Position numbers and translations under genes: made by a program. DNA of 53,853 nucleotides, from positions 1 to 53,853 of the forward strand of contig JASHPA010000117.1 in NCBI GenBank assembly GCA_030038365.1, in the 5' to 3' direction. Shown piece by piece: positions 1,794 through 36,409 of the stretch. Below the pieces are notes generated by a model. It saw only the letters and a list, made by a program, of their open reading frames with translations, did no database searches and had not been told where the DNA came from. Numbering within the stretch: the stretch's first letter is position 1; every line of letters starts with the position of its first letter. Source of the stretch: Nitrososphaerales archaeon. Lineage in GTDB: Archaea > Thermoproteota > Nitrososphaeria > Nitrososphaerales > Gagatemarchaeaceae.

Positions 1794-3110
1794 TCAGGAG
1801 TTGTAGGTGGCCGTCAGGACGAGGTTGGAGTCGAGCCCGAAAGTCCTGCAGGGGTTCGTGAGGCCGTCGTCCCAGTGCGAGAAGGTGTAGCTGCCGTAGT
1901 TGCCTACGCAGACCGTGTATTGGCCGCCTGAGACCCCTTCATAGGTCGTTGGGGTGAAACCGGATGTGATGGTGCTTCCTCCCTGGTAGAACCCAGCCCA
2001 CATGCCGTCAAGCGATCCTCCCGAGGAGAGGACGGACTGGACCTGTATCGAGTACTCCGGAGCGAAATAGGCGGTCAGGGTGGTCGAAGGTCCAAGGGTG
2101 AGGGTCTGCGAAGGCGAAGAGTTGCCATTCTGCCAGTTAGTGAATACTTCGCTGCCGTAGTTGAAGACATTGACGGTATACTGGTCGCCCACGGTACCAG
2201 TGAAGGTGAAGGGCGTGAACCCCTCGGCGACGGTGCTCCCTCCTGACGTTATCGTCAACCAGAGACCTGTCAAACTGGATCCTCCGAGACCCTGGGACTG
2301 GACCACGATAGAAGGCTGCAGGGCGAACATGCTCAGGTCCGAGGTCAGCTTGCTGAGGTAGGGCGGGACCGAGCCGTACGGATTGGGAAGGGCGCCGTTG
2401 GTGATGTAGATGTATCCAGCGTAGTTGGCCATCGTATCCACGATGGACGTGTTCAACAAGGGGATGTCGTAAGACACGAGCGCGAAGTCAGACTTTGGCT
2501 GACCTACTGTAATCGACGCAAGCGTGGACAGGCTCGGCACGCTTGGGTTCTCGTAGACGAGAATCACATCGACCGTACCAAGGTAGCTGGAGGGGACGCC
2601 TTCGCCGGCGTTCCCCACGACCAGCCCGAGCCCCTGCGAGTGTGCGTAGCTCGTTAATGTGGAGTAGTACGACTGATATCCGTTCACGCTCGACATCTCG
2701 TCTAGGAATATGCCGCTGACGAAGTACATCTGTTTGTAGGCCGCTATGGCGGACTCGACGGAGGACTGGCTGGCCGCGCCATAGAGAGTTGGAACGTAAC
2801 CCAAGACGTTGATACCGGCGTCCCTCAGCGCCACGATCCACTGGTCGTAGACGGGGCTCCACGTCGTACCCGGCCCGTTGTCCGGATTGATTATCACGGT
2901 GATCGGCACTGAGGGAAACGCCAGCCTCTGTTGCATCACCTCGGCCCACGCGACCCCAGGGTAGGAATAAAGCGGTATCAGCAGCCCCGTGGGGGCCGAC
3001 GTCTGTGCTGCAGCCGTCATTGGGTGTACGGCGAGCGGGAGCGCAAGGGCCGCCAGAAGGAGACCGAGCACTGCCCCAGTGCTTCTAACCTGGCTGGGCT
3101 TCAGCAACAA
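1794..3110 (-). CDS. Secreted spherulin-4-type glycoside hydrolase with two InlB-like repeats
   Basis: A 438-residue protein with a Sec signal peptide (hydrophobic 12-28, Ala-rich cleavage region near 35). The spherulation-specific family 4 TIM-barrel domain covers about 41-255: it starts LLIPLYSYPG, has INPDNGPG at 75-81, FLDE with Asp137-Glu138 and VYEN with Glu187. These match positions recalled as catalytic in GH135 Sph3 (Asp-Asn and Glu). Two divergent InlB-type repeats follow (about 268-352 and 353-438), each ending in an FTNWQNG or FSHWDDG turn and a TAYF/TATY strand. It likely acts outside the cell on an amino-sugar polymer, perhaps the product of the neighbouring Pel-like operon. The start is TTG. 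Substrate and activity are inferred. Confidence 0.82.
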   Translation of the reverse strand: MLLKPSQVRSTGAVLGLLLAALALPLAVHPMTAAAQTSAPTGLLIPLYSYPGVAWAEVMQQRLAFPSVPITVIINPDNGPGTTWSPVYDQWIVALRDAGINVLGYVPTLYGAASQSSVESAIAAYKQMYFVSGIFLDEMSSVNGYQSYYSTLTSYAHSQGLGLVVGNAGEGVPSSYLGTVDVILVYENPSVPSLSTLASITVGQPKSDFALVSYDIPLLNTSIVDTMANYAGYIYITNGALPNPYGSVPPYLSKLTSDLSMFALQPSIVVQSQGLGGSSLTGLWLTITSGGSTVAEGFTPFTFTGTVGDQYTVNVFNYGSEVFTNWQNGNSSPSQTLTLGPSTTLTAYFAPEYSIQVQSVLSSGGSLDGMWAGFYQGGSTITSGFTPTTYEGVSGGQYTVCVGNYGSYTFSHWDDGLTNPCRTFGLDSNLVLTATYNS

Positions 3111-3272: not shown

Positions 3273-4337
3273 ATGAGAGCGCGTGAAACGGTGCTCGTGA
3301 CCGCGGGCGGCACCGTCGTCGCCCAGGGCATAATCAAGTCTCTGAGACTGGCCAGCTCGAGTAGCCCGCTCTCGCCCCGTTACAGAGTAGTCGTCTCCGA
3401 CATGAGCCCGCAGGCCGCCGGACTCTACCGGGGAGACCTCGGCGTGGTCGTGCCACCGGCCTCGTCAGCCAACTACATAGACGCCATCCTAGACGTCTCC
3501 AGACGCGAGAACGTCTCGGCAGTGTTCTGCGGGTCCGACGAGGAACTATCTGTTCTAGCCGAAGCCGCAGACCGCATCCGGCGCAAGGTCGGTTCCACCG
3601 TCATCTCTAACTCGCGGGAAGCGATTACCCTCGGCCAGGACAAGTGGAGGACATACGGGTTTCTGAGCAAAAAAGGAATCCCATGTGCAGACTCGTCCCT
3701 TCCCAGGGGCTGGGAGACGTTCACGGAGACCCACAGTTTCCCGGTCGTTGTGAAGCCAAGGAGGGGGCACGGCTCTCTCGGTTTCCAGCTTGTCTCGAGC
3801 AGGTCCGAGGTCGGTCCTGCCATCGAGCGCCTCGAGAGGGCCGGGTATGCCCCCATGCTCCAAGAGTACCTCCCGGATGGGGAGAGCGAGTTTACCACAG
3901 GCGTCTCGTCGGACCCCCGGGGTCGCGTCATCGCCTCGATCTCCATGCGTAGGAAGCTGAAGGCAGGGCAGACGGCGAAGGCGTTCGTCGAGGACTTCCC
4001 GACCGTGAGGAAGGCGGCGGAGAGGGTAGCGAGGGCGATGCGAAGCAAAGGGCCTCTGAACGTCCAGGCGAGGGTGGAAAGAGGGGTGCCGAAGGTCTTC
4101 GAGGTTAATCCGAGGTTCTCTGCGTCAACTCCGATAAGAGCGGTCGCAGGGGTGAACGAACCTGACCTGCTCTTCAGAAGCTGGGTCCTGGGCGAGACCC
4201 TCACGCGGCCGAATACGAAGGAGATCGTCGCTCTGCGATACCTGAACGAGGTCTACGTCAGGCGGGAAGACTACGAAGAGACGTCAAGGACGGGAAGGTC
4301 CAAGGGTGTCCGGTCTTTCATACCGGACTATTTCTAG
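3273..4337 (+). CDS. ATP-grasp ligase, carbamoyl-phosphate-synthase-like
   Basis: A 354-residue ATP-grasp protein. The N-terminal pre-ATP-grasp fold starts with VLVTAGGTVVAQGIIKSL and contains FCGSDEELSVLA. The ATP-grasp core follows: VVVKPRRGHGSLG supplies the nucleotide-binding lysine and Gly loop, LQEYLPDGESEFT the middle segment, and VFEVNPRFSAS the metal-binding Glu/Asn near residues 270-280. Such enzymes join a carboxylate to an amine through an acyl phosphate. It is divergent from the spherulin-4 gene and faces the Pel-like operon, so modification of a surface glycan or peptide is possible. The substrate is unknown. Confidence 0.8.
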   Translation: MRARETVLVTAGGTVVAQGIIKSLRLASSSSPLSPRYRVVVSDMSPQAAGLYRGDLGVVVPPASSANYIDAILDVSRRENVSAVFCGSDEELSVLAEAADRIRRKVGSTVISNSREAITLGQDKWRTYGFLSKKGIPCADSSLPRGWETFTETHSFPVVVKPRRGHGSLGFQLVSSRSEVGPAIERLERAGYAPMLQEYLPDGESEFTTGVSSDPRGRVIASISMRRKLKAGQTAKAFVEDFPTVRKAAERVARAMRSKGPLNVQARVERGVPKVFEVNPRFSASTPIRAVAGVNEPDLLFRSWVLGETLTRPNTKEIVALRYLNEVYVRREDYEETSRTGRSKGVRSFIPDYF

Positions 4338-4432: not shown

Positions 4433-6088
4433 TCAGATGTACCTCGAGAAGAACAGGCTCCCTGGCCTGTCGAGGGCCCAGACCACGAACTGGTAGGAGA
4501 TGGCCATGCAGACCGCGGTCGCGAGCAGGTACGCGAAGACGATATCCTGGAAGCCGTACCTAGAGAGGATGAAGCCAGCCTCGGCTAGAATGGCGACCCC
4601 TCCGGCGGTTATTCCGGCGAGGGCCTTGATCTTGTTCATGAAGATGAGGAAGAGGCAGTTGGCCATGAAGATCACCATGAAGACGTCGGCGATCGAGGCT
4701 ATCTGGAGAACGAAGACGCTCTTGGCGGAACCACCTACGATCGCTTCGACATGGTGCGAAAGAATAATCAGCGTGAAGGCAACTGCCGCCGCGATTCCCG
4801 CGGAGACGGAAACGGTGAGACCGTAGCGGTACCGCAGGAAGCCGTCGACGCTCTTCATCTCCCATACCTTCTTCCTGGTGACGAGGTTCGAGAGCTGCTC
4901 CGCGATGGGAGACATTATCACGAACTGGGCGACGGCAGCGGGAAAGATTACCAGGAGCGCTATATCGGCCCCCAGGTGGTAGGTGGCATTGAAGACCAAC
5001 GGCAGCCGTATGCCATTCGCGAGGTGGTTCGGATTGAAGAACCAGGACAGGACGCGGTCGCCGAAGAGGAGGGCGAAGAAGAGCATCCCGAAGAGATAGT
5101 AGGGAAGGCCCTCCCAGAACTGTACGCTGAAGTTCGACATTATCGTGTGCTTGTTCGCCACCATCGCGTTGAGCGGGTTTCCGCTCTTCCTTCCTAGGGA
5201 CTCCGCGGTCCTCACAGTGATTACCCTGTATGCATAGTAAATCGGGAGAATCGAGAGGACGAGGACGGCCGAGGAAAGGGAGACGAGGTATCTGGTGACG
5301 GTGAGCGGAATCAGGTTGTAGGTCCAAGTGTACACGAAGACAAGCGTCGCGAGCGCGATCGCATAGCTGGCCACCACCTCCGCGAACTTCTTGAGCGAGT
5401 AGAGTATGACGTAGCTCATCCTGTGCAGGAGGATGGTGGTGCCCGCTACCATCGAGAGGAAGGCCAGGTCGAACGGGATGTGCGCCACCAGGCTGACCAT
5501 GTAGATCAGTGCATCGACCAGCGCGGCCAGGCCGGCTCCGAGCAGGGCGCTCCGTGCCATGGCCCTCCTGACCTCGGACAGGTTGTACTGTTCGTAGTAG
5601 AAGGAAAAGATCCGCTGGAAGAGCTGGACGGGTCCCTCGCTTACCAGGAGGCCGAAGAAGAGGCCAACGATGAGCGACGTGGTTATCGAGAGGGGGAGGC
5701 CATAGACCAGCCAGAGGGAGACGCCGAAGAAGAAGAGGACGGCGAGCGAACCCACCCACGGGAAGACGAGGCCGACTCCCCTGGCGACTCGGCTGCCGAG
5801 CGATGGGACCGGGATGAACATGGACTGTTGCTGGTGGGCCATCGTCTCCGACCTGTCGACGTAGTGATCAAGGATCGGATAGAGGTGCGTGGCTACGTCG
5901 AAGAGGTCCCTGAAGCCGTTCTCTACCGCTGTGCGGTTGTTGTAACCGAGCACCTCGAGGAAGATGATGACCTCTGGGATGGTGTCCAGGCTCGGCTGCA
6001 CCTCGGAGATCGAACGGGCCGTCCGCTCGAGAAAGAGCGCGGACCGCCTGGGCAGGGCGTCGGAACCCGCCCCGGCTAGAAGGTCCAA
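4433..6088 (-). CDS. PelG-like polysaccharide transporter, 12 TM, with N-terminal cytosolic extension
   Basis: A 551-residue protein with about 12 predicted membrane helices after residue 105 (final one near 520-542). Features in the order seen in PelG are GPVQLFQRIFSFYYEQYN after the second helix, a later FNATYHLGADIALLVIFPAA segment and the end LFFSRYI. In bacteria PelG is the membrane channel partner of the PelF glycosyltransferase. Unlike PelG, it carries about 105 soluble, helix-rich residues first (contains EVIIFLEVLGYNN). The start is TTG 15 bases after the epimerase stop, in an operon with a PelF-like gene, which strengthens the call. A MurJ/Wzx-like flippase is the main alternative. 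Confidence 0.72.
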   Translation of the reverse strand: MDLLAGAGSDALPRRSALFLERTARSISEVQPSLDTIPEVIIFLEVLGYNNRTAVENGFRDLFDVATHLYPILDHYVDRSETMAHQQQSMFIPVPSLGSRVARGVGLVFPWVGSLAVLFFFGVSLWLVYGLPLSITTSLIVGLFFGLLVSEGPVQLFQRIFSFYYEQYNLSEVRRAMARSALLGAGLAALVDALIYMVSLVAHIPFDLAFLSMVAGTTILLHRMSYVILYSLKKFAEVVASYAIALATLVFVYTWTYNLIPLTVTRYLVSLSSAVLVLSILPIYYAYRVITVRTAESLGRKSGNPLNAMVANKHTIMSNFSVQFWEGLPYYLFGMLFFALLFGDRVLSWFFNPNHLANGIRLPLVFNATYHLGADIALLVIFPAAVAQFVIMSPIAEQLSNLVTRKKVWEMKSVDGFLRYRYGLTVSVSAGIAAAVAFTLIILSHHVEAIVGGSAKSVFVLQIASIADVFMVIFMANCLFLIFMNKIKALAGITAGGVAILAEAGFILSRYGFQDIVFAYLLATAVCMAISYQFVVWALDRPGSLFFSRYI

Positions 6089-6103
6089 GAAGTGTCACGC
6101 ACG

Positions 6104-7069
6104 CTACAGAGCCAGTTCCAGAGAGGGGTGTCGTGACGATCGGACAACAGTCTCGAGCCCTTCTTCGAGAGAGACGTGGGGGCTGTAGCCGATTGCGTCG
6201 TGTATCTTCGATATGGACGCGGAGCCCGACCTGACGTCGCCGAGCCGCGCCGCCTCGAACTTTGGTTGGACCTCTTCAGCCCCGGTTATGCGCCTCAGGG
6301 TCTCGAAGAGTTTCAGGATACTCGTGGTCCTCCCTGAAGCGACGTTGAACGCCTGGCCGTCGGCCGGAGCGTTGGTCATCGCCAGCATGTTGGCCTGGAC
6401 AATGTCCCTGACATGCACAAAGTCGCGGTTCTGCAGGCCATCCCCGTAGATCACCGGAGTCACGCCGTTCAGAAGGCTGTTCGCAAAGACGGTTATCACG
6501 CCGCTGTACTCGTTGAGACCCTGCCGCGGACCGTAGACGTTGAAGTATCTCAGCGCCACCGTCTCGAGGCCGAAGCTGCTCCGGAATGACGTCAGGTAGC
6601 CCTCGACGGAGAGCTTGGAGGCTCCGTAGGGGGAGGAAGGCGCGCAGAGCAGATCCTCCGAAGCAGGTCTGCCGTCGAGCAGCCCGTAGACGGCGGCGGA
6701 TGAGGCAAAGACCATCCTCTTCACCGCCTTCTTGATGCAGAACATCATGACTTGGAGCGACGCGTCGACGTTCGCCTCATGGACGAGCACGGGGTCATGT
6801 ATCGACTTTGGAACGCTCGCGATTGCGGCTTCGTGGAAGACGACGTCGACATCCCTCACCGATGCGAGCAGGGCGTTTATGTCGGACGCGTCCCCCTTCA
6901 CCACGTGGAGGCGCTCGTTGTCCTTGTGCTGCGCGAGGTTCTCGATGCGGCCGGTGGAGAAGTTATCGAGCACCGTCGTCTCTATCTCCCTGCGAAGGAG
7001 CTCGTCTACGATGTGGCTTCCGATGAACCCCGCTCCGCCCGTGACCAATGCAGCCCTCACCTCGGTCAA
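6104..7069 (-). CDS. UDP-sugar 4-epimerase (extended SDR; GalE/WbpP/PelX-like)
   Basis: A 321-residue NAD-dependent extended short-chain dehydrogenase. The Rossmann motif GGAGFIGS is at 11-18, the catalytic Ser in SSAAVYG and Tyr-Lys in YGASK near 146-150, and NRDFVHVRDI is the usual substrate-loop segment. The family interconverts the C4 hydroxyl of UDP-Glc/GlcNAc to UDP-Gal/GalNAc. Its place between PelF-like and PelG-like genes parallels bacterial pel clusters in which PelX supplies UDP-GalNAc, so a GlcNAc epimerase role is inferred. The start may be TTG 7069, overlapping the upstream stop, or GTG 7060. Specificity cannot be read here. Confidence 0.85.
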   Translation of the reverse strand: MTEVRAALVTGGAGFIGSHIVDELLRREIETTVLDNFSTGRIENLAQHKDNERLHVVKGDASDINALLASVRDVDVVFHEAAIASVPKSIHDPVLVHEANVDASLQVMMFCIKKAVKRMVFASSAAVYGLLDGRPASEDLLCAPSSPYGASKLSVEGYLTSFRSSFGLETVALRYFNVYGPRQGLNEYSGVITVFANSLLNGVTPVIYGDGLQNRDFVHVRDIVQANMLAMTNAPADGQAFNVASGRTTSILKLFETLRRITGAEEVQPKFEAARLGDVRSGSASISKIHDAIGYSPHVSLEEGLETVVRSSRHPSLELAL

Positions 7070-8571
7070 CTCGTTACCAGGACCTCCCTAGAACCGCCGA
7101 GACGGGGAACCGAACCCCTGAGTCTGCCTTCATTTGCGATCTCATCGTAAGCATCCCTGTACCGCTGGATGCACTTCTCGAGGCTGAACTCTGCCCTGGC
7201 TCTCGCGAGCGAGCGCTCCTCGAAGTCAGCCCTGAGCTCTCTGTCCCTCAAGAGCCGCAATATCCCGTCCGCGAGAGCCGCGGAGTCCCTGCTCCTCACG
7301 AGCAGACCGCAGTCTGTGAGAGCCTCGTTCACGCCGCCCACGTCCGTCGCGACTATCGCCTTGCCGCAGGCCATCGCTTCTATGGTAGCGAAGGGGAATC
7401 CCTCGGTTATGCTGCTGAACGCCACTACGTCGGCAAGAGCGTATGCCTTCTCCGGCTCCTTCGTGCCGCCCATAAAGAAGAAGTTCTTCTCGAGGTCGAG
7501 GCTCTTCACCGCCCGCAGGCACTTACCATAGTACTCCGGCTCCGTGGTGTCGCCATAGAGGAGGCATCGAACGTCGCCGATGCTCGACCTGACCCGCGCG
7601 ATTGCCTGGACGAGCGCAACGATGTCCTTGAAGATGCTGATTCGCGCTAGGGAGACCACCGTAGGACGCGGGTCTTTCTCGACCTCGATAGGGCGGAACC
7701 GCTGCATGCTGACGCCATTGTAGATTACCCTTATCTTCGATGACGGGGCGCCGAGCCTCTCCTCCCATGTCCTGTTGGCGCTGCAGACCGGGACGACCAT
7801 GTCCGCGTTGCTGTATATCGTCTTGACCACGTTTCGCGTGAAGACCGTCCAGAAGACCTTCGAAGTTTCGCTGTACAGGAAGGTGTTGTAGTAGAGGAGG
7901 AGCTCCCTGAAGGCTATCCCGTGCTCGGTGAGCACGAAGCCAGAACCGCTTTCGAGCTTCGCGGAGACGCCGAGAAAGGCCGGCAACCAGGCGAGAGAGC
8001 TGTGCACCACATCGACCTTCGGGACCCTTATCGAAAGGACCTGCATGCTCTTCTGGATTACCTGGTAGTTGACGAGGGCTTCTCGCATCGTCATTTCGCG
8101 GTACAGCGGGTCCTTCCCCACCTTCTCGAGGAACAGTTCCCAAGTCCGGGGATGTTCAAAGGACTTCTTCGGGTCGTGGTCGAGGAGGAACTTCCTGAGA
8201 CCCTGTAAGACCGAGGTGAGCTCGGCAGGGTCGCAGTCGTTGTCCAGGATGGACGAGAGGAACCGGTCGTAGAGCGGAAGGAAGGTCCTCTTCATCGAAC
8301 CCTCGTCGGTTGCCGAGATCCTCCCGAGCATCGAGCCACGTATGTTATTGAACTCCTCCAGCCTCGTCGCGCCGAAGACCGGCACCCCGATGACGCCCTT
8401 AACATTCGCCGGTACCTTCAGGGTCCCGTTCGAGTTGGGGTTGGAGAGCTGGTTGAAGATGAAGAACTCGCAATCGGGCATGTTCTCCACGAGACCTCTC
8501 GCCCACGTGGAGACTCCGCCAGCTGCGACGTGCGGGTAGCTATCCCAGTTGATTAATAAAATTCTTTTCAT
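7066..8571 (-). CDS. PelF-like family 4 glycosyltransferase
   Basis: A 501-residue GT-B enzyme. PelF features are an N-terminal WDSYPHVAAGGVSTWARGL with FNQLSNPN and PANVKGV segments, VLTEHGIAFRE in the donor cleft region, then a GT4 C-terminal half: LARISIFKD, YGDTTEPEYYGKC, FSSITEGFPFATIEAMACG (E-x7-E motif) and ATDVGGVNE. PelF is the cytosolic UDP-dependent polymerase of Pel polysaccharide. A long insert (about 85-165) is present, as in PelF relative to ordinary GT4 enzymes. ATG at 8571 lies inside the end of the TPR gene, and the stop overlaps the epimerase start, so translation is probably coupled. The sugar is inferred only from context. Confidence 0.8.
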   Translation of the reverse strand: MKRILLINWDSYPHVAAGGVSTWARGLVENMPDCEFFIFNQLSNPNSNGTLKVPANVKGVIGVPVFGATRLEEFNNIRGSMLGRISATDEGSMKRTFLPLYDRFLSSILDNDCDPAELTSVLQGLRKFLLDHDPKKSFEHPRTWELFLEKVGKDPLYREMTMREALVNYQVIQKSMQVLSIRVPKVDVVHSSLAWLPAFLGVSAKLESGSGFVLTEHGIAFRELLLYYNTFLYSETSKVFWTVFTRNVVKTIYSNADMVVPVCSANRTWEERLGAPSSKIRVIYNGVSMQRFRPIEVEKDPRPTVVSLARISIFKDIVALVQAIARVRSSIGDVRCLLYGDTTEPEYYGKCLRAVKSLDLEKNFFFMGGTKEPEKAYALADVVAFSSITEGFPFATIEAMACGKAIVATDVGGVNEALTDCGLLVRSRDSAALADGILRLLRDRELRADFEERSLARARAEFSLEKCIQRYRDAYDEIANEGRLRGSVPRLGGSREVLVTS

Positions 8572-9178
8572 AGTCGGCACGACCCGCCGTTTTGGACCTG
8601 GAGACTGCGACGTGGGCAGGCCGCACACGGTCACCAGTGGCCTTCTTCAGGAAGGAATCGACAGCACCGAGCAGCTCTGACCAGTCGCCCGCCGGAGGCT
8701 CGGCACTCCCCGTCATCTGCTTCCTCCGCTCTCCTTCCTCCTCGAAGAGTCTGAGAGTCCTCACGCCGCCGAAGAGCTCGACCCGGCTGGCTACCAGAGA
8801 GTATTTTCGATACATCGCTTCGGCGAGCTCTCCCTCCCCGCAGATCAGATGATACTGACCGCTCTCCCAGAGCGACCACATGAGCTCTCGTATCGAGGTG
8901 CGCGCCACCCTTGCAGCGTTCTGCGTGTAGAGAAGCGCGACCTTGCTGTAGAGTTGCATCGCCTTTTCGCGAAAACCGATCGTCTCGATGCACGCTGCGG
9001 CGCTTGAAGCCGCGAGGGCTGCCCTGGCGACATGGCCCGAGGCGAGATTCTCCGAAGCATCCTGCAGGTAGAGTTCGGCTGCGGAGCCTAAATCCCCGCG
9101 CTCTTCCAGCCTGATGGCATTGAGCCACGGGTTCTTCTCGTCTGTAATCCTGTCTACCCATGTGGTGGCCTTTTGCAT
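8540..9178 (-). CDS. TPR-like helical protein, first gene of the Pel-like operon
   Basis: A 212-residue, all-helical, soluble protein resembling TPR/SNAP-like repeats: runs such as WLNAIRLEERGDLGSAAELY, an Ala-rich pair of helices, and KAMQLYSKVALLYTQ. It has no signal peptide or membrane helix. It is the promoter-proximal gene and its last 32 bases overlap the PelF-like gene. Bacterial PelE, a partner of the PelDEFG complex, also uses TPRs, so a scaffold role is plausible but unproven. ATG 9178 was chosen because a TATA box lies 28 bases upstream; a longer reading would run into glmS. Confidence 0.72.
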   Translation of the reverse strand: MQKATTWVDRITDEKNPWLNAIRLEERGDLGSAAELYLQDASENLASGHVARAALAASSAAACIETIGFREKAMQLYSKVALLYTQNAARVARTSIRELMWSLWESGQYHLICGEGELAEAMYRKYSLVASRVELFGGVRTLRLFEEEGERRKQMTGSAEPPAGDWSELLGAVDSFLKKATGDRVRPAHVAVSRSKTAGRADYEKNFINQLG

Positions 9179-9200
9179 TCGGTAAACACCCCTCGGGCCG

Positions 9201-9210
9201 GCTTTTATGG
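9201..9210 (-). promoter_or_regulatory. TATA box of the Pel-like operon
   Basis: The minus strand reads CCATAAAAGC, centred 28 bases before ATG 9178. The 124-base gap to glmS is divergent, so both operons could share control. A TTCTA half-site with a following AAGTAG lies at 9238-9248. Confidence 0.5.
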
Positions 9211-9302
9211 CGTTGATAACATTCAGCTGAAGGATTGTTCTAAAGTAGGCCTCTGAAAAACATCTACTCGAACTCTTTAGGCAGTTCGCCAACTGTATCC
9301 GC

Positions 9303-11063
9303 GTGTGTTCTATCATAGGATACCAGGGTACCAGGCGCGCCTCGCCGCTTCTGCTAAACGGGCTCAGGCGCATGGAGTACCGCGGTTATGACAGTGCTGG
9401 CATAGCTACTCTCGACGGAGGCAGAATAAGCGTCCGGAAGGGGGTCGGGAAGGTCACCGAAGTGAACGCAGCGGTCCATCTGGGCGAGATGGGAGGTCAG
9501 CTGGGTGTCGGTCACACGAGGTGGGCGACCCACGGCGGCGTCAGCGAGGTCAATGCTCATCCACATGTCTCGAACTCTGGAGAAATCGCCGTCGTGCACA
9601 ACGGGATCATCGAGAACTTCGCCGAGCTGAAGAGAGAACTCGAGGAGCAGGGATACGTCTTCCGGAGCCAGACAGACACGGAAGTGATAGTGAACCTCCT
9701 CCAGTCGAGCTTCGAGCGGAGCAGGGACCCGCGTGCGTCCGTGCTCTACGTCGTCTCGCGGCTGGAGGGGACCTATTCGTTTGCGGCGATCTTCCCGGAC
9801 GGGACCCTTGCTGCCGCCAGGTTTCGCGAGCCGCTGATAGTAGGTGTCGCAAAGGACGGGTTGTTCGTCTCGAGCGACATCCTGGGGTTCCTCGAGCAGA
9901 CGGACAGGGTGGTCTACATCGACAATCGGCAGTTCGTCGTGATGCGGGGAGGCAGGCTGCTGATAGCGGACTTCGACGGCAGGCTGGTTCACCAAGAGCT
10001 CGTGAGGGTGGCGGACGAAATCCGGGACGCGGACAGGGGCGACTACGTCCATTACACGCTGAAGGAAATATTCGAGCAACCTCGGACTACCGTAAGGACG
10101 GCAGAGAAGGTCGCGCCTTTGGCTGCCGAGGCAGCCAGCATCATAAAGTCGGCCGACCACGTCTACCTGACCGGTAGCGGCAGCAGTTTCCACGCCGCGC
10201 TCGTGGGGAAGTATCTGTTCTCGAAGTTCGGCGGAGTCAGCACTGAGACCATCATTGCGAGCGAGGCGAGGTTCGCCCCGCAGCGGTTCAGCCCGTCCTC
10301 GGTGATGGTAGCGATATCCCAGAGCGGGGAGAGCGCCGACGTCCTCGAGGCGGTGGCGATGGCCAAGGAGGATGGGGCGAGGGTCATTTCAATCGTGAAC
10401 GTCCCCACGTCCTCGCTGGCGAGGATGTCTTCTTTCACCATCAACCTGGCGTGTGGGCCCGAGATAGGGGTCGCCGCCACCAAGAGCTTCACCTCCCAGC
10501 TCGTCGCCTTATACAGCATCGCACAGATCCTCGGAGGGAACGGGTCCGCGCAGTCGTTCGAGCTCGTGGGCAGGCAGATGTCAGAGGTCCTTCAGAATCA
10601 CAGCAAGGTGAGCGCGCTCGCAGAGAGGATGGCCTCGCTCTCCGACGTATACGTCCTGGGCACCGGTGTCCACTACTGCGTCGCCGCGGAAGGGTCCCTG
10701 AAGATCAAGGAACTCGCCTACGTGCACGCGGAGGCCCTCCCGGGCGGGGAGCTAAAGCACGGACCTCTTGCCCTACTAGACTCCAACAGCTTCGTCATCG
10801 TGCTCAATCCCTCCGACCTGACTCACCGGAACCTCGTCGCAGGCGCGCACGAGGTAAGGGCGCGTGGCGCAAAAGTCGTCGGGATATCTGACATACCAAG
10901 CGACACCTACGATTACTGGATAAACATCCCCGGGACGTCGGAGGAGCTCTACCCGCTTCTCGAGGTGATACCCCTGCAGCTCCTAGCCTACCACATGGCC
11001 GTGCGACGGAATGCGAATCCCGACTACCCGAGAAACTTGGCAAAGTCCGTAACAGTTAAGTGA
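9303..11063 (+). CDS. glmS: Glutamine--fructose-6-phosphate aminotransferase
   Basis: A 586-residue protein, close to the usual GlmS length. The N-terminal class II glutaminase begins with catalytic Cys2 (CSIIGYQG), with RWATHGGVSEVNAHPH and the NGIIENF loop. Two SIS sugar-isomerase domains follow (about 270-400 and 440-570), with GSGSSFHAAL, SQSGESADV and the ELKHGPLAL segment near the end. It makes glucosamine-6-phosphate, the entry to UDP-GlcNAc. The start is GTG 9303, directly before the nucleophile Cys. It is divergent from the Pel-like operon, so it likely supplies amino-sugar precursor for that polymer as well as general needs. Confidence 0.96.
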   Translation: MCSIIGYQGTRRASPLLLNGLRRMEYRGYDSAGIATLDGGRISVRKGVGKVTEVNAAVHLGEMGGQLGVGHTRWATHGGVSEVNAHPHVSNSGEIAVVHNGIIENFAELKRELEEQGYVFRSQTDTEVIVNLLQSSFERSRDPRASVLYVVSRLEGTYSFAAIFPDGTLAAARFREPLIVGVAKDGLFVSSDILGFLEQTDRVVYIDNRQFVVMRGGRLLIADFDGRLVHQELVRVADEIRDADRGDYVHYTLKEIFEQPRTTVRTAEKVAPLAAEAASIIKSADHVYLTGSGSSFHAALVGKYLFSKFGGVSTETIIASEARFAPQRFSPSSVMVAISQSGESADVLEAVAMAKEDGARVISIVNVPTSSLARMSSFTINLACGPEIGVAATKSFTSQLVALYSIAQILGGNGSAQSFELVGRQMSEVLQNHSKVSALAERMASLSDVYVLGTGVHYCVAAEGSLKIKELAYVHAEALPGGELKHGPLALLDSNSFVIVLNPSDLTHRNLVAGAHEVRARGAKVVGISDIPSDTYDYWINIPGTSEELYPLLEVIPLQLLAYHMAVRRNANPDYPRNLAKSVTVK

Positions 11064-11399: not shown

Positions 11400-11407
11400 C
11401 TTATATT
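11400..11407 (+). promoter_or_regulatory. TATA box of the GvpD-like gene
   Basis: CTTATATT is centred 27 bases before ATG 11430. This favours that start over the TTG at 11406, which lies inside the box. Confidence 0.55.
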
Positions 11408-11429
11408 GAAGGCCGAACCGCTGAAGCGA

Positions 11430-12737
11430 ATGAGCGGTGGGTCTCAAGAGTCTCTGCCGGCTGGCTTGTCAGCCGCGCTTCCTCAGGAGCTAGCAGATTT
11501 CCTATCCGCGGGGGGGCGCTCGCTGATGATCAAGGGCGGCGCAGGCACAGGGAAGACTACCCTGTCGCTGGGCCTGATCGGCGTGCTGGCCGCGAGCAGG
11601 AACTTTCTCTACCTGTCGACCAGAGAGTCGCCCTCGCTTTTCCTTAGAGACCATCCCTGGCTTGGCAAGACCCAGGAGCGCGCGAGGAAGGGTGCCGCGA
11701 GGAATCCCGAGGAACAGGTTCTGGCAGGCTTCATCGATGCGAGGCTCGACGAGCCTACGCAGCTTTTCGAACGGGTTACCAGTCAGCTGATGGATGCGAC
11801 GTCCCCTTTGATCATAATCGACACGCTCGACGCCATGCACGACTATATGGGGAGCAAGGTCCTAAAGACCAACGTTAAGGTGCTGCAGACTTGGTGCGAA
11901 AGGGCAGGGGCCAGGGTCGTCGTTACGATAGAGGACCCCGAGTCGACCATCCTCGACTCACTCATGGACGGAATCGTAGTCTTAAGGCAGAAGATCCTGG
12001 AGAACAGACGGCTCAGGCAGATAGAGCTCGTCAAGCTGCTCGGAGCTCGGATAGCCAGGCCCTCATACTTCTTCACACTGAACGGTGGTAGTTTCAGGGC
12101 GTTCTCTGAGACGGCCCGCGACGCGTTCACCATCCCGCCCCGCGGGTCGCACATCACAAGACTCGCGCGGGCCAGGAAGGACCCCGGCTTCCTCCCTACC
12201 GGACACAGCCAGCTGGATGCAGCTCTCGGCGGGGGCTTGCCTGCGGGGGCAGTCTCCGTCCTCGAGCTAGGGGAGGGGGTCGACCCGAGGGTCGCCGCGA
12301 TACTCCTGGCCGACATGGTGGCGGCATCTCCCGAGGAGGGAGGAGTAGTGCTCGGCCCTCTGGGAGACCAGGAGGAGCCGTTCCTTGATAGCTACCTGAA
12401 GCTGCTGCCGGAGACCACAAGGGCCCGGCTCCGGAGCCTCGAGACGGAGGCTGGGTCCGGGGGCCCGGTCCTTGCCATCGTCGATGGGACGGCGGAGGAC
12501 GCGGTAGCAAAGTGTGCCACCGCAGCACGGTCGAGCCGCGGCGCAGCAGTCGTACTCACCAGGGAGGCGGAGCGAAGGCCATCCCTTGTCTCCCGGCTCG
12601 CGACGTCGAGGATGAAGCTTTACCACCTCGCGGGGACGATCATGTTGGCCGCGGAATCTCCCTTCTCGCAGTTCCTCGGCGTTGATGTGATCAACTCGGA
12701 CGGCGTACCTGTGCTTGATATGGAACCTATCGTCTGA
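11430..12737 (+). CDS. GvpD/KaiC-like RecA-superfamily ATPase with degenerate second domain
   Basis: A 435-residue protein. The first RecA-type domain has an intact Walker A (GGAGTGKTT near 33-41), then YLSTRESPSLF and a hydrophobic Walker B strand ending IIIDTLD, which recalls the GvpD P-loop family. A second copy begins LPTGHSQLDAALGGGLPAG, as KaiC-like domains do, but its P-loop reads ELGEGVDPR, lacking the GKT/S. The second half therefore probably cannot hydrolyse ATP. GvpD-like proteins are widespread in archaea outside gas-vesicle loci, and no gas-vesicle gene is seen. A regulatory or signalling role is inferred. Confidence 0.75.
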   Translation: MSGGSQESLPAGLSAALPQELADFLSAGGRSLMIKGGAGTGKTTLSLGLIGVLAASRNFLYLSTRESPSLFLRDHPWLGKTQERARKGAARNPEEQVLAGFIDARLDEPTQLFERVTSQLMDATSPLIIIDTLDAMHDYMGSKVLKTNVKVLQTWCERAGARVVVTIEDPESTILDSLMDGIVVLRQKILENRRLRQIELVKLLGARIARPSYFFTLNGGSFRAFSETARDAFTIPPRGSHITRLARARKDPGFLPTGHSQLDAALGGGLPAGAVSVLELGEGVDPRVAAILLADMVAASPEEGGVVLGPLGDQEEPFLDSYLKLLPETTRARLRSLETEAGSGGPVLAIVDGTAEDAVAKCATAARSSRGAAVVLTREAERRPSLVSRLATSRMKLYHLAGTIMLAAESPFSQFLGVDVINSDGVPVLDMEPIV

Positions 12738-12740
12738 CGG

Positions 12741-13112
12741 CTAACCGGTGATCTTCTCAATCTGGGTGGCGAGCTCTGAGATGGTTATGGGCTTCCTTAG
12801 GAAACCCTCGATCTTCATGTTTGGGAACAGCCTCTTGAACTCGTCCGTGTAGACCTCGAACGCGGTCAGGAAGCAGACTTTAACAGACTCGTCCACCTTC
12901 TTGACCTCCCTGAAGAACTCGAACCCGTTCATCTTGGGCATCCGTATGTCGAGAATGATAAGGTCATACGTACCGGGCTTGTAGTTCGCCAGCGCGTCGA
13001 CGGGGTCGTTGTAGACGTCGACCGTGAAGCCCTTGTGGGCGAGTCCCAGCTTCAACGAGCTCGTGATATCCTTCTCGTCATCCACTATCAGGACCCGAGT
13101 GGCTGGAGCCAT
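12741..13112 (-). CDS. REC-only response regulator
   Basis: A 123-residue stand-alone receiver domain. It has VLIVDDEKD (acidic pair), LIILDIRMPKMNG with phospho-acceptor Asp near 54, FLTAFE (Thr switch) and FLRKPI (conserved Lys). There is no output domain, so it likely passes a signal by protein contact, CheY-style. The stop lies four bases from the convergent GvpD-like gene. Possible partners are the orphan kinase at 18069-19916 or kinases elsewhere. Confidence 0.9.
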   Translation of the reverse strand: MAPATRVLIVDDEKDITSSLKLGLAHKGFTVDVYNDPVDALANYKPGTYDLIILDIRMPKMNGFEFFREVKKVDESVKVCFLTAFEVYTDEFKRLFPNMKIEGFLRKPITISELATQIEKITG

Positions 13113-15900: not shown

Positions 15901-16224
15901 CTATGCGCGAATGAGCGAGGCTCCGCTCTCGACCTCGAATATCTCGAGCAACTCTGAGTAGATGTGCATGAACCTGTTGCCCTTCTCGGTAGTCTTGTAC
16001 AGCGTGCGACCAGACTCGTTCTCCATCGCCTCCGCGAGACCGAACCTGAGTATCACGTCGAGGTAATCCTGTACCTGCTTAGAGTTCAAGTTGCACTTGT
16101 ACATTATGTGCGTCTTCATAGTCCAACTGATGCAGACGTGCAGCACCATGTTTATGATGTCGAGCGATTCCCTGTTACCCGAACCCATCATCTTCCTGTC
16201 CCGCGTGGGCATCGCTCGCATCAT
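15901..16224 (-). CDS. Winged-helix regulator, HTH_45-like
   Basis: A 107-residue protein with the pattern of the gene at 1393-1683: MKTHIMYKCNLNSKQVQDYL (recognition helix), LDVILRFGLA and YKTTEKGNRFM (wing), then a short tail. Start ATG 16224 or 16221 lies just past the PIG-L stop, so the two genes are probably co-transcribed. It is a small DNA-binding regulator by family; the target is unknown. Confidence 0.75.
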   Translation of the reverse strand: MMRAMPTRDRKMMGSGNRESLDIINMVLHVCISWTMKTHIMYKCNLNSKQVQDYLDVILRFGLAEAMENESGRTLYKTTEKGNRFMHIYSELLEIFEVESGASLIRA

Positions 16225-16229
16225 GTCTT

Positions 16230-16970
16230 TCAGCCCAACCTCGTACCGTCCAGCTTTTTCTGCTGTATGAGAGCTTCCAATTCTTCCGGTGTCTGAACCT
16301 TCGAGCTGTCTGGGAGAGCGCGTACCCTGTCGCGCGGCACCTTCAGGAGCTTGAATTCGTTGTCCAGGCACATCTTCAGTGTGTCGAAAGCCTCGACATA
16401 GTTTATCGACGTGTTTAGCCTGCTCTGCAGGGCGCGGAACTCCGCCAGTGATTTTATCGCGTTCGCCTTGACATAGAGCTTGCTCCGCTGTGACCAGTAG
16501 ATCCTGATGAGCTCTATCTTGTCATCAATCACGTCGGAGATGTCGAAGTAGACCTTGGGGTCGAAGTTCCTCGTCAGGGGAATCTCGTAGGCGAGTATGT
16601 TCGAACCGAAACGCGCAGCCTCCTGCGTCGCAATCGACACCGCCCGGTGGTCGTGATGGATGTCCCCGTGGAAGTGGGTCATGATTATCTCGGGGTCTAC
16701 TTTGTTGATGTAAGACTCGAGGAAGTTGATTAGCTCGTTATCCACCTTCAGCTTCGTATCCTGAAAGTCTCCTATCATAACGTCCTTCGCCCCGACGAAC
16801 TTGGCGGACCGGAACAGCTCCTGCGTCCTCTCGTTTGGATCCCCGGAGGCAGCTCCCCTGGTTACAGTGCACATATGCACCTGGTGGCCTGCTCGGGCAA
16901 CTCTGATGAGCATGCCGCCACAACCAAGTTCAATGTCATCCGGATGCGCCCCTATGGCAAGCACTTTCAC
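16230..16970 (-). CDS. PIG-L/LmbE-family N-acetylglucosaminyl deacetylase-like protein
   Basis: A 246-residue protein. AHPDDIELGCGG (His9, Asp11, Asp12) and HFHGDIHHDH (about 99-108) are the zinc and catalytic motifs of the LmbE/PIG-L fold, which removes acetyl groups from GlcNAc-containing substrates. GTG 16970 is preferred: it gives the family start MKVLAIGAHPDD and lies 25 bases after a GATATATC box (16992-16999). It is followed by a winged-helix gene and preceded by a WbqC-like gene. A role in deacetylating an amino-sugar polymer or its precursor is plausible given the nearby Pel-like cluster. Small-molecule deacetylases share the fold. Confidence 0.87.
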   Translation of the reverse strand: MKVLAIGAHPDDIELGCGGMLIRVARAGHQVHMCTVTRGAASGDPNERTQELFRSAKFVGAKDVMIGDFQDTKLKVDNELINFLESYINKVDPEIIMTHFHGDIHHDHRAVSIATQEAARFGSNILAYEIPLTRNFDPKVYFDISDVIDDKIELIRIYWSQRSKLYVKANAIKSLAEFRALQSRLNTSINYVEAFDTLKMCLDNEFKLLKVPRDRVRALPDSSKVQTPEELEALIQQKKLDGTRLG

Positions 16971-17054
16971 GTTTGGCACAAATGGTTCGGGCGATATATC
17001 GCTGCACGAGGATTTTTCACTATCAAAACGAGAAAGGCAGCCTACACGGGCGCA

Positions 17055-17759
17055 TCAGGTGTTCCGCGCTGTGATGGCACCGCTCCGTTCGATAAAAGCC
17101 GAGCTCGCAGGGCCGAGGTTGAACAACATGTCAAGGACCGAGAGGTCTGGCACAAACTCCCGGCCGAATCTTTGCGGATATGGGACAGAAGAATAGTTCT
17201 GATACTCGACGGAGACGCCGCGGGCGCGGAAGACATCCTCGTCGAGGTACCTTGTGCCTCCCCGTCCAGAGAGGTACGCGTCAGCACCCACCGCCTGGCA
17301 TAACTCGACAAGGCGCTGGCTGCCTACCGATGCGACCCCCAAAGTTGACTCCAGCACGATCGGCGTGCGCACCGCTAACCATTCCATGGCCATTTTGGTG
17401 GTCTCCAGGTCGAGCTCGAAGAGCGAAGCCCATTCTCTCTCGTAGAGGCGCTTCAGGTCTGCCGAGTAGAGGCGGAAGTGCGGCGCGTTGGCATACGAAA
17501 CGAGAATCTTCTGCCAGTGGTCGCTCCTCCACGGGATCGAGTTATTGATCGTGATGTCGCGGTTCGGCATGAACCTGCGGGCCTTGTCTATCGGCACGCT
17601 CAGCCACACAGGTCCGTGTGGGTCGAGGATTCGGTTGCGGTTCGTGAACCTGCGGTCGTACTGAGTGGCATCCATCAACACGAAGACGTCCGCCTGCTTG
17701 AGCTTGTGGAAGAAACCAGGATAGGGGAAATAGTGGGGCTGATGGATGGCCGCTTTCAA
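17055..17759 (-). CDS. WbqC-like family protein
   Basis: A 234-residue protein. The start AIHQPHYFPYPGFFHKL and YDRRFTNRNRI are hallmarks of the WbqC-like family, found in O-antigen and other surface-glycan clusters. YLSGRGGTRYLDE and a C-terminal VLDMLFNLG motif, also typical, are present. Biochemistry is poorly defined; acyl transfer or modification of an amino sugar is usually suggested. The start is TTG 17759. It is upstream of the PIG-L gene on the same strand, making a likely two- to three-gene glycan-modification unit. Confidence 0.82.
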   Translation of the reverse strand: MKAAIHQPHYFPYPGFFHKLKQADVFVLMDATQYDRRFTNRNRILDPHGPVWLSVPIDKARRFMPNRDITINNSIPWRSDHWQKILVSYANAPHFRLYSADLKRLYEREWASLFELDLETTKMAMEWLAVRTPIVLESTLGVASVGSQRLVELCQAVGADAYLSGRGGTRYLDEDVFRARGVSVEYQNYSSVPYPQRFGREFVPDLSVLDMLFNLGPASSAFIERSGAITARNT

Positions 17760-18068: not shown

Positions 18069-19916
18069 TTACTTGGGATTCTTCGAGGGGCTCGGCCCGC
18101 CTCCGTTGCCCATCGGGAGCGTGAAGCTGAAGGTCGACCCGGGTTCGTCTGGGCCGTTGTTCTGGGCCCACATCCTACCACCGTGGGCCACGATCAGCTT
18201 GCTAGCGATGAAAAGGCCGAGCCCTGTGCCCGAGGGCGACGTTGTGACGAACTTGTTGAACAGCCGCGGGAGGACCTCGGGGTCTATACCCTTTCCCTGG
18301 TCCTTGATGCTTACCATGACCTGATTGTCCGAGGTCTTGCCAGCCCTGACAGTTATCGTCCCCTTGCCACCGGAGAACCTGGCGGCGTTGTTGAGCAGGT
18401 TCGAGAGTACCTCGTGAATCTTGGTGTTATCGGCGTTGATTGGGATGCTGGACTCGGTCTGATCGTATTTTATCGCGACCCCCATACCTGGACCCGAAGC
18501 CGTCTCGGTCTCCGTGATGACGTCCTTGATCGTGTTGTTGAGATCGAATGTCTCCTTCGTGAGGACCATCCTGTTATCGTCTATGCGCGACACAGTGAGG
18601 ATGTCGTCGGTCAGCTTCTTCAGCCTCCTCGCGTTGCTGCTGATCGAGTCCACAGCTTGCTTCATCTCTGTGTCGTCGAGGCTGGTGGCGCTCGCCGGGT
18701 TCTTGGTCTGTTTGGCTCCTGAGACGTCCTGCAGGATCTCCGTGAACCCGAGTATGCTCTGCGTCGGGGTCCGGAGCTCGTGTGCTGCTATGTTCACGAA
18801 GTCCGTCTGACTCCGAGCGTAGGCCCTCAGCTGCTCATTTGCCGCCACGAGGTCGGATGTCCTCTTGGTCACCGTGTCGTCGAGCCTCTTGTTCCATCCG
18901 AGGAAGACTACTGCCGAACCCACTGCGACCCCGGCGATACCCAAGATGACGAAGGAGCTGAGTACTCGGAGCTGCGAGAGCAGGGCTGCGCTCTCGCCTT
19001 CGAGGGTGTCCGGCTGCACCATGTAGAGAATGCCGAAGATGTGGAGGCTCCCCGCCATGTTCACACCGTCGAGGTAGACGGGGACGTAAGCTACCGTCGT
19101 GTTGGTCCCTCCGACGTCGATGTTGGAGACGCCACTCGCACCGTTGAGGGAGTTGCGAATCAGGGTGTCCAACGAAGCGGCGAATGTCGATGGCATGCCG
19201 CTCTGGACTGACTGCGAGAAGATGTTCTGACCTACCAGCTTGGCGTCCTGCGTGTACAGTATAGTGGCGTTGGCGTCCAGCAGGTTGATGTCACCATTCG
19301 AGCTCAACGATATCTGGCTCTGGATATAGCTGCCGAGGGTGGTCAGTTCGATCGCCGCGCCCACGACGCCCTGAGAGACCCGGGTACCGTTCGGTCCTAT
19401 CTCCTGGACCATCTCTGACACGAAGATGTAGGAGACGCTTGCGTTGGTCAGCGAAGGAAGAGCACCCGTTATGTGTACGCCTGATGATGCCTCGGCTTCT
19501 GAGAAGTACGGTCGTCCGGTCAGGTTGGTGCCGGCGTACGAAGCGACGCTCTGGACGGTGCCGTTGTCCAGGGCTAGCAGTGTCCCGTTGTCCGCGATCC
19601 AGAAGAAGTTGTCGACGAATCCTGCCGCAGAAGCCTCTGCGCCCCCTAGCAGAGCCAGGATAGACGTGGTCGTGCCGCCAGAGGCTGTATTGGCCACTAG
19701 TTGAACGCTGGACGCGACGCCCTGTAGCTTTGCGACGAGGACGCTCGCCGTGTCCGTCACCTGAACCTGCGTACTCGACTCGATGTTGTTCACGTCCGCT
19801 CTGTCAATCTGAGCCAGGGTGTACTCGGAATACTGGTACGTGATGAAGAGGAAGAGGGCGGCGGCTACGCCTATCGCAATGAGAGGGACCGGCCTCGTCT
19901 GTCGTGCAAATCGCAA
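18069..19916 (-). CDS. Membrane sensor histidine kinase with Cache-type sensor
   Basis: A 615-residue protein. It has TM1 (about 12-28), an extracellular sensor of about 270 residues with Cache features (GRPYFSEA near 135-140), TM2 (320-341), a coiled coil, then HisKA with His379 in HELRTPTQS and an HATPase domain with the N box NLLNNAARFS, DQGKGID and GTGLGLFIASKL. It autophosphorylates and would donate to a REC protein; REC-only regulators at 12741 and 24292 are candidates. The start is TTG. A perfect TAGAATTCTA palindrome lies 50 bases upstream. Confidence 0.92.
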   Translation of the reverse strand: MRFARQTRPVPLIAIGVAAALFLFITYQYSEYTLAQIDRADVNNIESSTQVQVTDTASVLVAKLQGVASSVQLVANTASGGTTTSILALLGGAEASAAGFVDNFFWIADNGTLLALDNGTVQSVASYAGTNLTGRPYFSEAEASSGVHITGALPSLTNASVSYIFVSEMVQEIGPNGTRVSQGVVGAAIELTTLGSYIQSQISLSSNGDINLLDANATILYTQDAKLVGQNIFSQSVQSGMPSTFAASLDTLIRNSLNGASGVSNIDVGGTNTTVAYVPVYLDGVNMAGSLHIFGILYMVQPDTLEGESAALLSQLRVLSSFVILGIAGVAVGSAVVFLGWNKRLDDTVTKRTSDLVAANEQLRAYARSQTDFVNIAAHELRTPTQSILGFTEILQDVSGAKQTKNPASATSLDDTEMKQAVDSISSNARRLKKLTDDILTVSRIDDNRMVLTKETFDLNNTIKDVITETETASGPGMGVAIKYDQTESSIPINADNTKIHEVLSNLLNNAARFSGGKGTITVRAGKTSDNQVMVSIKDQGKGIDPEVLPRLFNKFVTTSPSGTGLGLFIASKLIVAHGGRMWAQNNGPDEPGSTFSFTLPMGNGGGPSPSKNPK

Positions 19917-23598: not shown

Positions 23599-24273
23599 AT
23601 GGCCACCCTCCTTTTTCCGCTTTACATCTATCCTTCGAATCAGGGCGCGTCATGGGCCCGCATAGTGTCTGCCGTGAAGACAAACCCCCTGGCGAAGACG
23701 ATCATGGTCGTCAACCCGGGGAACGGCCCGGGGAAGTCGGTCGACCCAAACTACTCGGCGGCTATCGAGACGCTGAGTTCGGCGGGCATTCCGATGGCGG
23801 GGTATGTGTTCACAAAGTACGGCGCGCGGCCGCTTGATTCGGTTGTGGACGACCTGTCGGTCTGGTCCAAGTTGTATCCAAAGGTCTCTGCGATATTCGT
23901 GGATAACATGGCGAACAAGCCGGGCCTCGAAAACTACTATACCCGGCTTACCGGCAGCGCAAAGTCGCTGGGATACAGGATGGTCATGGGGAACCCCGGC
24001 TCACCGATACCGACGTCGTACTTCGGGACCGTCGACTCGGCCGTGATCTACGAGAATTTCGGGTATCCCAAGTCTGCGCAGGCCCTTGACCCGGAGGGCT
24101 GGTACTCGTCCCATCGCGGTTCGTTCGGGATGATCGCGCACGGCGTTGACGTGCTGGACCAGGAATTCATCGCTTCGGCCGCAAGAGTCGTGGAGTTCAT
24201 GTGTGTTACCCAGACCTACCACGCAATACCACCCTACTTCGAGCAGCTCCTGTCGACGCTGAGCGGGCTATAG
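23599..24273 (+). CDS. Stand-alone spherulin-4-type hydrolase domain, no signal peptide
   Basis: A 224-residue protein made of just the spherulin-4 TIM-barrel domain: LLFPLYIYPSNQGASW at the start, VVNPGNGPG at 38-45, FVDN with Asp102-Asn103 and IYENFG with Glu152. The Asp-Asn/Glu set matches that recalled for GH135 Sph3 more exactly than the two secreted paralogs (Asp-Glu and Asp-Gln). It lacks a signal peptide or TM, so it may act in the cytosol or use another export route. It sits 54 bases after the cupredoxin gene on the same strand. Confidence 0.8.
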   Translation: MATLLFPLYIYPSNQGASWARIVSAVKTNPLAKTIMVVNPGNGPGKSVDPNYSAAIETLSSAGIPMAGYVFTKYGARPLDSVVDDLSVWSKLYPKVSAIFVDNMANKPGLENYYTRLTGSAKSLGYRMVMGNPGSPIPTSYFGTVDSAVIYENFGYPKSAQALDPEGWYSSHRGSFGMIAHGVDVLDQEFIASAARVVEFMCVTQTYHAIPPYFEQLLSTLSGL

Positions 24274-34685: not shown

Positions 34686-36290
34686 TTACGAGCCCTTGCG
34701 GCGCATCCGCTTCTCCGCAGGGATCAGGGGGACGCTGGTCGCGGTGACGAACAAGGAGACGAGGGACGCTCCATGCGGCACGGGGGCGGCGGATGAACTT
34801 GTCGAACCGCTGCCGGAGGTCTGGTTGGTGACGTAGGCGTCCAGCAGTATGTCGGTCGTAGGCGTTATGTTGACGGTGTCGCTGCTGGATAACGACGTGT
34901 TGGCCCACCCGTAAAACGAGTAAGTGCTGTAGTTCTGGACATCGACTGCGTAGTCGCTACCTATCGTCGCGACGAATGTAAAGGGAGTGTAGCCAGATGC
35001 CACGACAGTCCCTCCCTCGGAGGCGGTGATGTAGATGCCCACGACAGGAACCCCGTTCGGTTCGAAGGTATGGACGGTGACGAGAGAGGCGTTTGTCGTG
35101 GAGGTGCTGGAGTCGGCCACCAGCGTCGTCGCCTGGGTTGCTTTCAGCGTGATGGTCTTGCTCGTGTCTCCATCTGACCAGTGGTCGAAGACATACCCTC
35201 CGTTGTCCTGGACCGTAATCGTGACCGAAGACCCTTTGATCACATCAAAAGTCGACGTAGTGAAACCTGAATTGGCCAATCCATCGGGCTGAGTCACGGT
35301 GACGTTGAAGCCCCTGTCGACTATCGTACCGTTAGGGATGGCGGTCTCTACCGTGATAGGCACCAAGGACCCCAGGTCCGATACTAGCTGACCGAAGTAA
35401 GAGGGAAGAGAATTGTATGGGTGCGGGTGCTCGTTGCTGGTGAGGAAGAGGTAAGCCACGTCATCGGAGGCTGCGGCGATGTAGTAGGGGTTGAGCGACG
35501 CCACATTGTAGGCGAAGAAGGCGAAGTTCGACTTGGCGTACGTGCCGTTCCAGTGATCGATTATGGAGAGAGGAGGCTCGTAGGAGTTCTCGAAGAATCC
35601 TATCGTGCTCACAGTCCCTATGAGATAATACGGGACATCCGTGCCTGAGTTGCCGAAGATCTCCGTCATACCCAAGGACTTGATGTACGCCGTCAGCGTG
35701 GAATAGAAGGTCGGTATGAACGTGCCGTCGGTGCTGTACTCGAGGTTGTACATCTGGTCCAGGTATATCCCGTCCGGATGATACCAGTTGTAAAAGTCCG
35801 AGATGCCTGATTCAACAGTCTGGACGGAAGCGTTCCCCCAGTCTGTGGGGACATACCCAATGACGGTTATTCCCGCCGACTCCAACTGCGTCAAACCAGC
35901 CCCGTAGCTTGCGTTCTCTGAAGTTCCAGGGCCGTCGTCAGGATTTGCGACCACGAGGAAGGGGACCGAAGGGTTGGCCTCCTTCGTCTGTATCAGCTCG
36001 CTGACCTCCGTTAGCGTGTAGTTCGTGAACATCGGGACTATCACCCCCGTGCTGAGCTGCGCTACCGGAGAAACGGAGGTCGAGGTCGTCCTTTCCGATG
36101 AGGTGATCCCGGTCGATAGGCCGGAGGTAGTCGACGTACTCGAGGTGCCAGTGCCGGTGGCGGAGGAGGCGAGACCCGAGTAGCTCGAGGAGCCTAACGG
36201 CCGAGTCGTGCCTGCGATCAGCGCCCCAGCGACGACAATCACCACGATAACCGACACGGAGACCAGAACCGCTATTCTCCGCCGCGACAT
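34686..36290 (-). CDS. Membrane-anchored spherulin-4-type hydrolase with C-terminal InlB-like repeats
   Basis: A 534-residue protein. It has a TM anchor (8-27), a Ser/Thr linker to about 75, and a spherulin-4 domain (about 80-305) with VANPDDGPG, YLDQ (Asp178-Gln179) and FFEN (Glu234). Two beta repeat units follow, with a FDHWSDGDTS turn and one near FYGWANT, and a hydrophobic stretch before the basic end EKRMRRKGS, possibly a second anchor. It likely hydrolyses a surface polymer while tethered. ATG 36290 suits a GTTATC box at about 36308-36316. The TTCTA cluster lies 120 bases upstream. Confidence 0.8.
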   Translation of the reverse strand: MSRRRIAVLVSVSVIVVIVVAGALIAGTTRPLGSSSYSGLASSATGTGTSSTSTTSGLSTGITSSERTTSTSVSPVAQLSTGVIVPMFTNYTLTEVSELIQTKEANPSVPFLVVANPDDGPGTSENASYGAGLTQLESAGITVIGYVPTDWGNASVQTVESGISDFYNWYHPDGIYLDQMYNLEYSTDGTFIPTFYSTLTAYIKSLGMTEIFGNSGTDVPYYLIGTVSTIGFFENSYEPPLSIIDHWNGTYAKSNFAFFAYNVASLNPYYIAAASDDVAYLFLTSNEHPHPYNSLPSYFGQLVSDLGSLVPITVETAIPNGTIVDRGFNVTVTQPDGLANSGFTTSTFDVIKGSSVTITVQDNGGYVFDHWSDGDTSKTITLKATQATTLVADSSTSTTNASLVTVHTFEPNGVPVVGIYITASEGGTVVASGYTPFTFVATIGSDYAVDVQNYSTYSFYGWANTSLSSSDTVNITPTTDILLDAYVTNQTSGSGSTSSSAAPVPHGASLVSLFVTATSVPLIPAEKRMRRKGS

Positions 36291-36409
36291 CCTGGGTCCA
36301 GTCTGCACGATAACCTACCTCCTCGAGCGCCCGCGCCCTACTAGGCGCACGAAAAAGGTTCGATAGTGCATCGCGTAAGGTTCTCCCCGGAACTTTATCC
36401 GGAACGGTC

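Follow-up and report, generated by a model that had tools for sequence, protein, structure and literature searches.

A predicted Pel-like exopolysaccharide locus in Gagatemarchaeaceae and related Nitrososphaeria

Do archaea of the class Nitrososphaeria carry a machine for making a Pel-type exopolysaccharide? The question is raised by the window, i.e. the whole stretch of 53,853 nt analysed here (contig JASHPA010000117.1 of assembly GCA_030038365.1, a Nitrososphaerales archaeon of the Gagatemarchaeaceae), in which an earlier note, made from the sequence alone, had described four minus-strand genes for a TPR protein, a PelF-like enzyme, an epimerase and a 12-TM PelG-like protein, with glmS diverging from them. 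All of these genes were found, and the gene starts were corrected. The four minus-strand genes are tightly packed at 4433-9178 and are ordered, in the direction of transcription, TPR-like protein, PelF, sugar-nucleotide epimerase and 12-TM PelG-like protein. The first gene (8540-9178), for a putative TPR-like helical scaffold protein, is conserved upstream of PelF, and its start was moved from 9373 to 9178, the ATG at which the orthologues begin in the alignment. The gene for the predicted GT4 polymerase PelF (7066-8571) starts at an ATG, codon 22 of the long ORF, and overlaps by 4 bases the gene for the NAD-dependent sugar-nucleotide 4-epimerase (6104-7069), an overlap also present in most orthologous loci. 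The last gene (4433-6088, TTG start) encodes the PelG-like putative exporter of 551 amino acids. On the plus strand, glmS (9303-11063), predicted to supply amino-sugar precursors, diverges from the set, while a gene for an ATP-grasp protein (3273-4337; NF009402 above cut-off) converges on the PelG-like gene.

The assignment of the GT4 gene to PelF was supported by several comparisons. Its product scored 122.2 bits against the curated 100-bit cut-off of the NCBI equivalog NF038011 and contained the PelF-specific N-terminal domain DUF3492 (7e-31), and the GT4 catalytic residues R331, K336 and E411-x7-E419 (long-ORF numbering) lined up with those of bacterial PelF. In a phylogenetic tree, which was midpoint-rooted and carries a long-branch warning, the window PelF grouped with other archaeal PelF next to PelF of Actinobacteria and Deinococcota (support 100/99), and the proteobacterial Pel enzymes formed a clade apart from it. 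In total, these profile and residue comparisons show that the GT4 gene belongs to the PelF family.

The 12-TM protein of the window, searched alone, had no match in Pfam or NCBIfam. Among 19 aligned family members, 16 matched the PelG family PF16933 (best 5.3e-13; the count includes matches up to E = 1), and none matched another flippase family; one orthologue reached 32.3 bits against the PF16933 cut-off of 29, with neighbours included in frame. Moreover, the PelG Pfam cut-off was exceeded by three proteins of deeper Thermoproteota, which are encoded adjacent to PelF and are related to the window protein by BLAST (E 1e-16 to 6e-20). A first hhalign comparison of the 19 orthologues with PelG was not significant (E 0.15); with the three deeper Thermoproteota sequences added, canonical PelG was matched over its full length (E 5.8e-6, 414 columns), while the E. 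coli MurJ, Wzx and MATE controls gave 0.05-0.5. Single bacterial PelGs matched the family profile weakly. The AF2 model (pLDDT 79.8) contains 12 long helices, and a Foldseek search against the PDB identified the MOP fold, which is also common to MATE, Wzx and MurJ; PelG was absent among the PDB hits of the model, so that structure does not separate PelG from Wzx. A PDB sequence search returned a weak receptor match only, which we took as chance. In total, the profile tests favour PelG over MurJ, Wzx and MATE, in line with the PelG-like reading of the earlier note, and they show that the 12-TM protein belongs to the PelG family.

The archaeal PelG-like proteins have about 95 N-terminal residues beyond known PelG, preceding the 12-TM MOP-fold domain. 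The same N-terminal domain was found in "hypothetical" membrane proteins encoded beside PelF in Streptomyces, Kocuria, Deinococcus and Thermus, and these extended bacterial proteins matched the archaeal PelG-like proteins with hhalign values of 1.7e-5 and 1.2e-6. The bacterial proteins look like unrecognized PelG relatives. They are present at loci L047, L048, L049 and L090-L094, including Kocuria plasmids.

The epimerase (PF01370, 4.6e-60) is a generic extended-SDR 4-epimerase; its SDR motifs are invariant across 18 orthologues, and its nearest PDB structures include UDP-sugar 4-epimerases of the GalE and WbpP types. Thus, the part of the original annotation that called it a UDP-sugar 4-epimerase stands, while the designation PelX-like does not, the sequence being only that of a generic extended SDR; the enzyme could make UDP-Gal instead. 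The AF2 model of the TPR-like protein is all-helical (pLDDT 83), and a Foldseek search with it gave no significant match. PelE was considered as an identity for this protein and rejected (hhalign of the TPR family against PelE, E 0.74). A glmS homologue adjoins the cluster in 21 of 47 loci, which are partly redundant, and an ATP-grasp gene neighbours it in 35 of the 47 at a median distance of 15 bp.

A survey of archaeal synteny showed that the gene set is conserved much more than chance would allow. In 18/18 loci of the class, all four genes have homologues lying together, with PelF split in one of these loci (L026) and the gene order different in another (L037); the same holds for nearly all of 29 named loci, some of which come from the genomes of those 18. 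Carriers include Gagatemarchaeum stordalenia, which is the nearest named one (58% in PelG), as well as Nitrosotalea devanaterra, Nitrosotenuis and Nitrososphaera-type MAGs. Contamination was rejected as an explanation, since single-contig genomes, among them the N. devanaterra chromosome, carry the cluster. At L037, L081, L086 and L087, the clusters are rearranged, with swapped order and a second TPR and epimerase gene on the opposite strand. Homologues of the window genes for a KaiC/RecA-like ATPase (11406-12737), a response regulator (12741-13112) and a histidine kinase (18069-19916) recur near the cluster at many loci, and these KaiC-like, kinase and response regulator genes could be candidate regulators.

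The window also contains, as the earlier note had observed, genes for spherulin-4 hydrolases (GH135) and a PIG-L type deacetylase. Three genes matched PF12138: copy 1 (1794-3110, minus strand; 4.2e-37), copy 2 (23599-24273, plus strand; 9.4e-39; no leader) and copy 3 (34686-36308, minus strand; 2e-30), which has a hydrophobic N-terminal stretch. The N terminus of copy 1 is hydrophobic and signal-like, and the protein appears to be secreted; it aligns with Aspergillus Sph3, with D137, E138 and E187 at the conserved acidic positions. The second acidic residue is replaced by N in copy 2 and by Q in copy 3. A single gene (16230-16979, minus strand; no leader) matched PF02585 (1.4e-25) and encodes the PIG-L enzyme. 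Beside it lie genes for an HTH_45 winged-helix protein (15901-16371) and a WbqC-like protein (17055-17759, minus strand), a grouping that is conserved at many pel loci.

Both enzymes co-occur with the PelG-like gene, which is present in 19 of 300 genomes of the class. PelF above the cut-off was detected in 18/19 of these genomes, the nineteenth carrying a split PelF, and in 0/281 others. GH135 was present in 19/19 genomes with the PelG-like gene and in 2/281 without it (Fisher p 4e-28, a nominal value as the test treats related genomes as independent). The association was also seen within one genus (10/10 carriers compared with 1/16 listed members lacking the PelG-like gene) and within the window's own family (7/7 compared with 3/39), and a GH135 gene typically follows PelG on its strand, about 1.2 kb downstream. 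Moreover, a PIG-L orthologue (at least 60% identity) was found in 17/19 genomes with the PelG-like gene and in 0/281 others. Through this co-occurrence, the PIG-L enzyme is linked to the Pel-like system.

In line with the earlier claim of a cell without c-di-GMP, no GGDEF protein was found in the assembly. Similarly, GH114 had no match in the genome, and no CE4 deacetylase is linked to the cluster, the two CE4 matches both being on other contigs. The genome is about 88% complete and, therefore, these absences are not absolute. Near a CE4 match, an ORF at L095 (G000:C29) appears by eye to join an intein-like end to a DNA polymerase B-like C terminus; separately, the window gene for ribosomal protein S12 (46715-48679, minus strand) is interrupted by an intein (PF14890, 2.8e-9).

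Altogether, we consider it likely, judging from sequence, that the locus encodes a Pel-like, synthase-dependent and c-di-GMP-independent exopolysaccharide system making a GalNAc-rich polymer. The substrate, the polymer chemistry, the export and a role in biofilms are what we infer. In the proposed mechanism, GlmS and downstream enzymes would provide UDP-GlcNAc, which the 4-epimerase would convert to UDP-GalNAc; PelF would polymerize UDP-GalNAc at the cytoplasmic face, and the PelG-like exporter would move the chain across the single membrane. The TPR protein together with the extra N-terminal domain of PelG may fill the scaffold role of bacterial PelD/PelE, a secreted GH135 would trim or release the chain outside the cell, and regulation would be independent of c-di-GMP.

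The same machine might instead make a different polymer, with galactose, GlcNAc or a mixture as its sugars and a GH135 of altered specificity. The sequence does not fix the specificity of the epimerase and an acidic residue is changed in two of the GH135 copies; however, one window GH135 retains all three acidic residues and the adjacency of glmS indicates an amino sugar, and we regard this possibility as rather unlikely. The genes could also belong to a lipid-linked glycan pathway, for an S-layer glycan or another surface oligosaccharide, in which the GT4 would load sugars onto a carrier of dolichol type and the 12-TM protein would act as an ordinary Wzx-like flippase. Many archaea glycosylate their S-layer and the MOP fold is common to Wzx and MurJ. 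Against this, the profiles choose PelG over Wzx, MurJ and MATE, the N-terminal domain of the glycosyltransferase is specific to PelF, this is the single glycosyltransferase among the recurring neighbourhood genes (the survey covered homologues of window genes), and the linkage to a polymer endo-hydrolase is strict, making such a pathway distinctly unlikely.

GH135 Sph3 cleaves alpha-1,4-GalNAc polymers and is specific for acetylated poly-GalNAc (PMC9135694). A paper on the Gagatemarchaeaceae ascribed to their GH135 a potential role in breaking down the cell walls of fungi (PMC10640624). If it served to attack fungal walls for food, the association with PelF/PelG would reflect a shared soil habitat only. 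The soil origin, the GH135 copies outside the cluster and the three family genomes with GH135 but no PelG-like gene agree with such a role; however, the co-occurrence persists inside a single genus and a GH135 typically follows PelG closely on its strand, and we consider the fungal-wall explanation very unlikely. Because GH135 is linked to PelF/PelG, the data suggest that it processes the cell's own polymer, which is a better fit than attack on fungal walls.

Thus, the sequences indicate that soil archaea related to ammonia oxidizers probably produce a galactosamine-type slime of their own. For soil ammonia-oxidizing archaea and their relatives, the matrix polymers are so far undefined, and the cluster offers a specific machine and a predicted chemistry, for which Sph3, the PelA hydrolase and GalNAc lectins are ready test tools, including in N. 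devanaterra; for GH135 of the Gagatemarchaeaceae, it offers an alternative to the potential degradation of fungal cell walls. In the open-licence literature, we found no paper that mentions PelF/PelG or this cluster for Thaumarchaeota. Pel-type synthesis would reach a second domain of life, in a form that appears to lie outside c-di-GMP control. More tentatively, and with slightly less than even confidence, we propose that a second, c-di-GMP-free Pel-type branch, recognizable by GH135 and N-extended PelG, extends across Archaea, Actinobacteria and Deinococcota and that its product in soil Nitrososphaeria is a matrix of acetylated alpha-1,4-GalNAc, with GH135 as a biosynthetic partner, not as a fungus-degrading enzyme.

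Set against known systems, the locus is better described as a variety of Pel-type synthesis that is independent of c-di-GMP than as a stripped-down bacterial operon. Bacillus cereus pelDEADAFG (PMC7112168) shares PelF and PelG, has a GalE-type epimerase and a galactosaminidase beside the operon and likewise functions in a single membrane without PelB/PelC; by contrast, the archaeal set is without GGDEF-dependent control, detectable PelE and a linked CE4 PelA-DA, its PelG has the N-terminal domain and its hydrolase is a GH135. Pseudomonas pelABCDEFG shares the PelF/PelG core; by contrast, the archaeal assembly has no GGDEF or GH114 match, the TPR protein is not PelE-like and PelF lies outside the proteobacterial clade. 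The earlier description as a reduced counterpart is misleading, as there is no sign that genes were lost from a complete bacterial Pel operon and the closest relatives are the PelF/TM-protein/SDR/spherulin-4 clusters of Actinobacteria and Deinococcota. The Streptomyces, Kocuria and Deinococcus clusters share the PelF clade, a TM protein carrying the N-terminal domain of the archaeal PelG-like protein and, in most, an SDR; they differ in that most have an extra nucleotidyltransferase and a second SDR and no TPR of the archaeal family was seen in them. The Aspergillus galactosaminogalactan pathway, which uses a synthase different from PelF, resembles the archaeal system in that GH135 (Sph3) is tied to a producer of a GalNAc polymer. 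Finally, spherulin-4 is part of the actinobacterial PelF clusters as of the archaeal set, and those of Streptomyces and Kocuria encode it together with annotated polygalactosaminidases.
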